A stretch of DNA of 36,906 nt from Tannerella sp. (GTDB lineage: Bacteria > Bacteroidota > Bacteroidia > Bacteroidales > Tannerellaceae). The stretch lies in contig JAISTS010000046.1 of the NCBI GenBank assembly GCA_031272455.1, forward strand, positions 1-36,906, written 5' to 3'. The notes beneath the pieces were generated by a model. It saw only the letters and a program-made list of their open reading frames with translations. It did not search any database and was not told where the DNA came from. A program made the position numbers and the translations under genes. Each line of letters opens with the position of its first letter. Position 1 is the stretch's first letter. Shown here in pieces: positions 29,927 to 30,240 of this stretch.

Positions 29927-30056
29927 CCGCCGATACCAAAACATTAACAATGAACGAAAGATGGACATATTGTCTTAGCGCTACCGTCGGCGGTACTTAT
30001 TCGACGGAAGGGCTATTTATTAACCAAATTTATTTGGTGTTGTCGCGCTTTTTGTT

Positions 30057-30098
30057 AGAGAGAGAGAGAGAGAGAGAGAGAGAGAGAGAGAGAGAGAG
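30057..30098 (+). repeat. (AG)21 dinucleotide microsatellite
   Basis: Twenty-one uninterrupted AG units, the only such tract in the window. It lies about 125 bases downstream of the predicted transcription start and 142 bases upstream of the susC ATG. Dinucleotide tracts this long are hot spots for slipped-strand length change. Confidence 0.97.
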
Positions 30099-30143
30099 AT
30101 GTGAATCTGGCGTCGCGCGCGCGTATTATACTAAAAATCATTT

Positions 30144-30184
30144 ATTCCGGAAAATGCAGTTATGTCTATTTTCCGGAATTTTCG
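30144..30184 (+). terminator. Hairpin in the susC leader, possible attenuator
   Basis: attccggaaaat (30144-30155) and attttccggaat (30168-30179) form a perfect 12-bp stem with a 12-base loop, followed by a short T-rich run (tttcg). It is stable enough to act as an attenuator or to pair with alternative leader sequence. The T-tract is short, so complete termination is unlikely. Confidence 0.5.
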
Positions 30185-30240
30185 TATCTGTGCTGATCAT
30201 AATACCTATTACAATATTTATTAACTTAATCAATTTTTAT

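Follow-up and report, generated by a model that had tools for sequence, protein, structure and literature searches.

This study concerns the leader of a susC gene in a 36,906-nt stretch of Tannerella sp. DNA (assembly GCA_031272455.1, contig JAISTS010000046.1; Tannerellaceae, Bacteroidales); this whole stretch is hereafter called the window. A long perfect AG repeat lies between a putative promoter element and the susC start codon, inside a short open reading frame (ORF) that precedes the receptor gene. The features of the locus were as follows:

29919..29926, forward strand: promoter element TATTTTTG (TAnnTTTG), a Bacteroidota-type -7 candidate from its sequence match and a position typical of the family
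29950..30240, forward strand: leader ORF with its ATG at 29950, 97 codons, open into susC in the present frame by frame reading
30057..30099, forward strand: (AG)21.5 tract within the leader ORF, 43 nt of perfect units, the candidate frame switch
30102..30104, forward strand: TGA that shuts the exit frame reached by losing one unit or gaining two
30144..30179, forward strand: 12-bp perfect inverted repeat (30144-30155 / 30168-30179) followed by a short U run, a terminator-like attenuator candidate
30194..30196, forward strand: TGA that shuts the exit frame reached by gaining one unit or losing two, past the hairpin and short of susC
30241..33339, forward strand: susC, a TonB-dependent receptor with CarbopepD_reg_2 and Plug domains (Pfam)
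33353..35206, forward strand: susD
35206..35922, forward strand: gene for a DUF3823 protein, likely in the same operon judging from the spacing

The original prediction had described an AG microsatellite before susC with a TAnnTTTG element upstream of it, lying within an ORF that runs from 29950 through the repeat and is open into susC in the present frame, the two other frames being closed after the repeat; a change of one or two AG units would thus shut the upstream frame and a change of three would reopen it. All of this was borne out by frame reading. The leader ORF meets the tract in frame and has no stop before the susC ATG at 30241, and according to the exit frame the first stop lies at 30102, at 30194, or nowhere ahead of susC, which predicts short versus long leader products. 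Under a first-order Markov estimate, about 7e-23 runs like the 43-nt tract are expected in the window. The TATTTTTG octamer, which fits the Bacteroidota -7 consensus (TAnnTTTG), was non-significant by itself (3 matches in L010 against 2.7 expected). As GAG and AGA codons alternate in all three frames of (AG)n, every frame encodes Glu-Arg, and the repeat peptide itself is no evidence of coding. Among inverted repeats with arms of at least 10 nt between 29700 and 30400, one imperfect 14-nt pair (86%; 29772-29785 and 30035-30048) flanks the promoter, with one arm within the upstream gene; the 30144-30179 hairpin does not flank it. No Rfam family matched the window at gathering thresholds, and the window SusC had no Pfam match to the STN domain.

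The leader recurred in related genomes. When relatives were first scanned for AG tracts of 24 nt, 20 of 41 genomes had one. All 20 were among the 25 genomes of the window's genus, whereas the 16 genomes from other families of the order had none. Two forms of the sequence preceding the tract were distinguished, the TT-tract form TTAGAGAGAGAGAGAG (27 of 41 genomes of the window's genus) and the TTGC-tract form TTGCAGAGAGAGAGAG (20 of 41). Among named genomes, 58 stretches had an AG tract with GCAGGCG after it, and 51 of these were titled as Tannerella sp. metagenome-assembled genomes (MAGs). These MAGs presumably come from termite guts, as suggested by their isolate codes. One study of termite gut MAGs names the family Tannerellaceae (PMC11481507), and the word Tannerella does not occur in another (PMC9137090). 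Order-wide, 11 of 393 genomes matched, two of them through coding matches. The matches to TTAGAGAG in G341 and G111 (L228, L229) fall in a translation-factor gene resembling lepA, and are therefore regarded as coding coincidences. Two genomes from genera of other families, G173 and G070, carried 17 and 19 copies respectively (17 and 25 with a shorter pattern), and lone leaders of the same design were found in G059, G348 and G233. In a sample of the phylum, 5 of 395 genomes matched, namely the window's genome and four others. The window's assembly (85.5% complete) contained one other AG run of at least 12 nt (G000:C13:7268).

The anatomy of most of these leaders followed one plan. Of 188 distinct tracts, 134 were reached in the same one of the three frames by an ORF of at least 50 nt starting with ATG (28 and 12 for the other frames; the compound tracts of L060, L276 and L333 count as two rows per leader), and the leader ATG lay about 80 nt ahead of the tract. 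In 98 of 140 leaders, TAnnTTTG stood 18-60 nt upstream of the initiating ATG, compared with 4.2 expected from mononucleotide shuffles (four of 144 loci had too little upstream sequence and were dropped); transcripts therefore probably include the tract. As read from the sequences, the family order is candidate promoter element, short ORF, (AG)n, spacer and gene, most often susC.

A further regularity was found downstream of the tract. The stop of each exit frame was measured in 144 nonredundant tract loci (of 148) with a 240-nt spacer, comprising 122 loci from the genus, 10 from G173, 8 from G070 and 4 others, among which the coding matches L228 and L229 were kept; the 122 include at least five tracts of the CT class described below, read on the wrong strand (L035, L056, L268, L269, L320). 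In the genus, the longest frame extended over a mean of 209 of 240 nt, compared with 106.5 (standard deviation 4.8) in shuffles, a value reached by none of 200 shuffle sets. It stayed open for at least 150 nt in 106 of the 122 genus loci (27.8 expected in shuffles), 10/10 in G173 (1.5 expected) and 8/8 in G070 (1.9 expected). The stricter pattern of two frames stopping within 50 nt and one open for at least 150 nt was found in 46/122, 9/10 and 8/8 loci respectively, for expected counts of 9.9, 0.6 and 0.8. Frames open for at least 150 nt were found in 128 of 144 loci on the sense strand versus 30 of 144 on the antisense strand. As a natural control, tract-free upstream regions from the same contigs showed them in 8 of 26 cases versus 39 of 42 tract spacers, the former ending at the gene start and the latter starting at the tract. 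A rough automated assignment gave 121 of the 144 loci a gene (23 had none); the open frame was fused to that gene in 12 (two being the coding matches) and ended separately in 109. Forty of these 109 frames ended within 40 nt of the gene start, nine of them in an ATGA overlap, the commonest single endpoint value. In the G173 set, under another start rule, the frame end was close to the gene start in most loci.

These frame statistics speak against the tract being a mere neutral microsatellite of an untranslated leader or an artefact of assembly. Several contigs do end in or near such tracts, which would suit an artefact, but the flanks and the ORF are conserved in many genomes and were found also inside one 4.3 Mb contig, and we regard this explanation as highly improbable.

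A different reading is that the tract acts as a spacing or protein-binding element of DNA or RNA, for instance at a second promoter, the reading frame being incidental. The leader ORFs showed no amino acid constraint (102 pairs; ratios of 0.84 for the reading frame against 0.81 and 0.62 for the shifted ones) while nucleotides before the tract are conserved, which favors such an element. In the TTGC class (40 loci, including L131, L103 and L125), the motif TGGCAYG-N4-TTGC is strongly conserved directly before the AG tract, inside the leader ORF. It resembles the consensus of a sigma54 promoter and may be one; this resemblance concerns the TTGC form only and cannot explain the TT form. Spacing does not explain the frame statistics downstream of the tract, and the position of the promoter element upstream of the leader ATG probably places the tract within the transcript, so a spacing or binding role appears unlikely. 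Under the frame-switch reading, the lack of amino acid constraint means that the ORF would matter through being translated and not through its product. A functional Glu-Arg peptide was also considered and dropped, given this lack of constraint and the encoding of Glu-Arg in every (AG)n frame. The same constraint test on the open-frame spacer had just 11 pairs (0.44 in frame, 0.55 and 1.23 in the shifted frames).

Hairpins were also positioned with respect to the exit frames. The window hairpin had a folding energy of -16 kcal/mol within 30138-30190 (z -5.07, for a stretch picked around the hairpin). A hairpin of -9 kcal/mol or lower followed by a T run was present in 45 of 144 spacers, compared with 8.5 in shuffles; the longest frame ran past the hairpin end in 43 of these 45 loci, and the shortest stopped ahead of it in 44. 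A conserved hairpin before the tract was weakly supported (best column pair z 5.9).

Tract length differed between leaders whose flanks were at least 93% identical (51/49, 43/57 and 43/37 nt). The 43/57 pair (L085 and L138) came from two different MAGs and preceded near-identical receptors, while the other pairs were paralogues within one MAG. Rows comparing a leader with itself (L060, L276, L333) were left out, and so was a 43/15 pair (L095, L274), since the repeat of L274 resumes after an interruption.

We therefore consider it probable, with good confidence, that the tract switches a phase-variable leader, in which the reach of translation depends on the number of units modulo 3. The proposal of the original prediction that slippage switches susC via the leader frame thus gains support, at the level of sequence, from the recurrence of the leader, the open exit frame and the length differences between near-identical leaders. 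Transcription would start just 3' of the promoter element at 29919-29926, and ribosomes would initiate at ATG 29950 and traverse (AG)n. At the present length, no stop interrupts the exit frame across the hairpin (30144-30179) or further on to susC, and a translated leader would prevent premature termination (antitermination) and leave the susC start exposed or translationally coupled (ON). Slippage by one or two units within a population would make the leader end either at 30102, before the hairpin (OFF), or at 30194, beyond the hairpin and short of susC (possibly an intermediate state). With a cassette carrying its own tract length before many surface genes, each cell would express a stochastic subset of them.

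The window locus sits in its long frame, the predicted ON phase. Across the genus, 37 of 122 loci were in their longest frame with ties counted and 31 without, and these low counts mean that loci are mostly in shorter frames. This fits costly genes kept mostly OFF, but the ON label could also be wrong.

Several observations weigh against the translated-leader switch. Just 9 of the 46 clear genus loci were in the long frame, and none of the 17 G173 and 24 G070 tracts read (in G070, one contig-end tract was left out, three of the 24 had a leader ORF cut or shortened, and the paralogues are not independent). The middle exit frame of the genus also outlasted shuffles (mean 97 versus 48), so the pattern with two closed frames is not general there. 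Of the 109 non-fused open frames, 55 ended more than 100 nt before the assigned gene; some of the starts behind these 55 are wrong, as for L241 and L242, where the gene adjoins the frame end on a re-run, which does not account for the rest. In the window, the frame is fused to susC, and ribosomes reading all the way through would place 97 extra residues ahead of the signal peptide; the terminator scan did not call the hairpin, whose U run is short, and the whole leader (30100-30245) folded no better than shuffles (z -0.76). Finally, a strong terminator-like hairpin within 240 nt was present in only the 45 of 144 loci mentioned above.

The scarcity of long frames bears on another explanation, in which closed phases normally express the gene by slippage of the ribosome or RNA polymerase on (AG)n, as a non-genetic stochastic switch, genetic slippage being secondary. 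The open frame is kept although 0 of 41 tracts of G173 and G070 sit in it, as this explanation would allow, but it counts against it that 31 to 37 of the 122 genus loci are in the open frame and that dinucleotide repeats are not known to be strong slippery sites. We hold it to be very unlikely.

A second class of leaders comprised 15 loci with a sense-strand (CT)n tract in a different leader ORF, the tract encoding Leu-Ser repeats. The ORF reached the tract in 15/15, and, by raw count, an exit frame of at least 150 nt was present in 13/15; one of the two exceptions had just 127 nt available, and L124, a sixteenth row unrelated to the others, was excluded. Also of this class is the second tract in the window's genome (L061; G000:C13:7268-7287), its Leu-Ser leader lying 149 nt before another SusC.

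Concerning the downstream genes, 96 of the 119 referenced proteins were scanned (10 from G173, 7 from G070 and 6 doubtful ORFs were left out). CarbopepD_reg_2 was found in 58 (Plug in 57), HU-DNA_bdg with DUF4469 in 10, extracytoplasmic function (ECF)-type sigma-70-family regions in 4, and TIG in 4. Nine proteins were also sampled, of which two belonged to the set of 96; here all three G070 proteins possessed FG-GAP repeats and two an Ig-like domain; three of the four G173 proteins had no match and one had a weak match. G173:C1 and G070 carry paralogous families of secreted proteins (AQVGINT..., TDNVF...), with AG leaders before the genes read. At L123:10-222, two AG tracts lie in tandem leaders before a gene resembling, by eye, an ECF-type sigma factor; were this gene under phase control, an entire regulon would switch with it.

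The window SusC was 66-81% identical to its five best relatives, and no AG run of at least 8 nt was found in the stretch read for any of them. For four (L340, L341, L343, L344; 66-79% identical), the preceding ORF matched FecR and FecR_C. The STN domain was present in L340, L343 and L344; neither L341, which has a longer N-terminus, nor L342, which aligns from residue 93 on, had an STN match. The cassette can thus apparently replace another form of control, a leader at the window susC standing in the place of a FecR anti-sigma gene at four relatives. More broadly, it seems reasonably likely that, in several Bacteroidales lineages, dispersed genome-wide leader cassettes (AG, CT) driven by slippage control tens of SusC receptors, together with secreted paralogues, some ECF sigma factors and HU-like proteins, through independent frame switches, sometimes in place of other control, so that surface display would be combinatorial and generated by slippage, not inversion.

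Two further repeats were observed. A 48-nt tandem repeat is present at 10292-10441 of the window, within ORF 9725-10738. In a Synergistaceae MAG, a 55-nt AG tract (L111, match 4186-4216, minus strand) lies inside a long ORF resembling, by eye, an FkbM-type methyltransferase, and may be an intragenic contingency locus.

Simple-repeat contingency loci of Haemophilus and Neisseria are intragenic or lie in promoter spacers. Slipped-strand mispairing of short repeats would be common to both systems, but the present repeat is neither within the receptor gene nor part of a promoter spacer: it belongs to an ORF of its own upstream of the gene, some 130 nt beyond the promoter element. In Bacteroides fragilis, phase variation of SusC/SusD reportedly depends on a DNA invertase, in work attributed to Nakayama-Imaohji and colleagues (2009; cited in PMC11868660). 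There, as proposed here, SusC/SusD surface proteins come under stochastic control, but through site-specific inversion. Phase variation in Bacteroidales is known mainly through DNA inversion (PMC11868660). No description of such a switch in Bacteroidales turned up in literature searches that covered open-licence papers without preprints.

The closest precedent is the pil1/pil3 leader of Streptococcus gallolyticus. A genetic study showed that the length of a leader ORF there varies with the GCAGA repeats it contains and that, at pil1, termination at a stem-loop is relieved by long leaders (Danne et al. 2014; PMC3894217). In both systems the number of units shifts the exit frame, here as read from sequence, and surface genes lie downstream. 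The short streptococcal leaders end before a stem-loop and the long ones reach or pass it; the terminator-like hairpins in 45 of the 144 spacers may play a comparable part here. The streptococcal leaders differ in having a GCAGA pentanucleotide at two pilus operons in Firmicutes, whereas AG or CT dinucleotides occur here at about 140 loci in Bacteroidales; moreover, unlike in pil1/pil3, the open frame overlaps the gene start in some loci (the 9/109 ATGA cases). We propose that the Bacteroidales leader works like that of pil1, with a different unit, phylum and scale, and with the ORF reaching the gene in some loci.

As the phase state would be written in the repeat number, it is testable from reads. 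The model also predicts that short-read metagenome assemblies break at tract loci, and several contigs begin or end in a tract. Such a switch would carry a mechanism shown at two streptococcal pilus operons over to a set that spans the genome. For the Bacteroidales, slippage at numerous genes for glycan receptors would be a second mechanism of phase variation.
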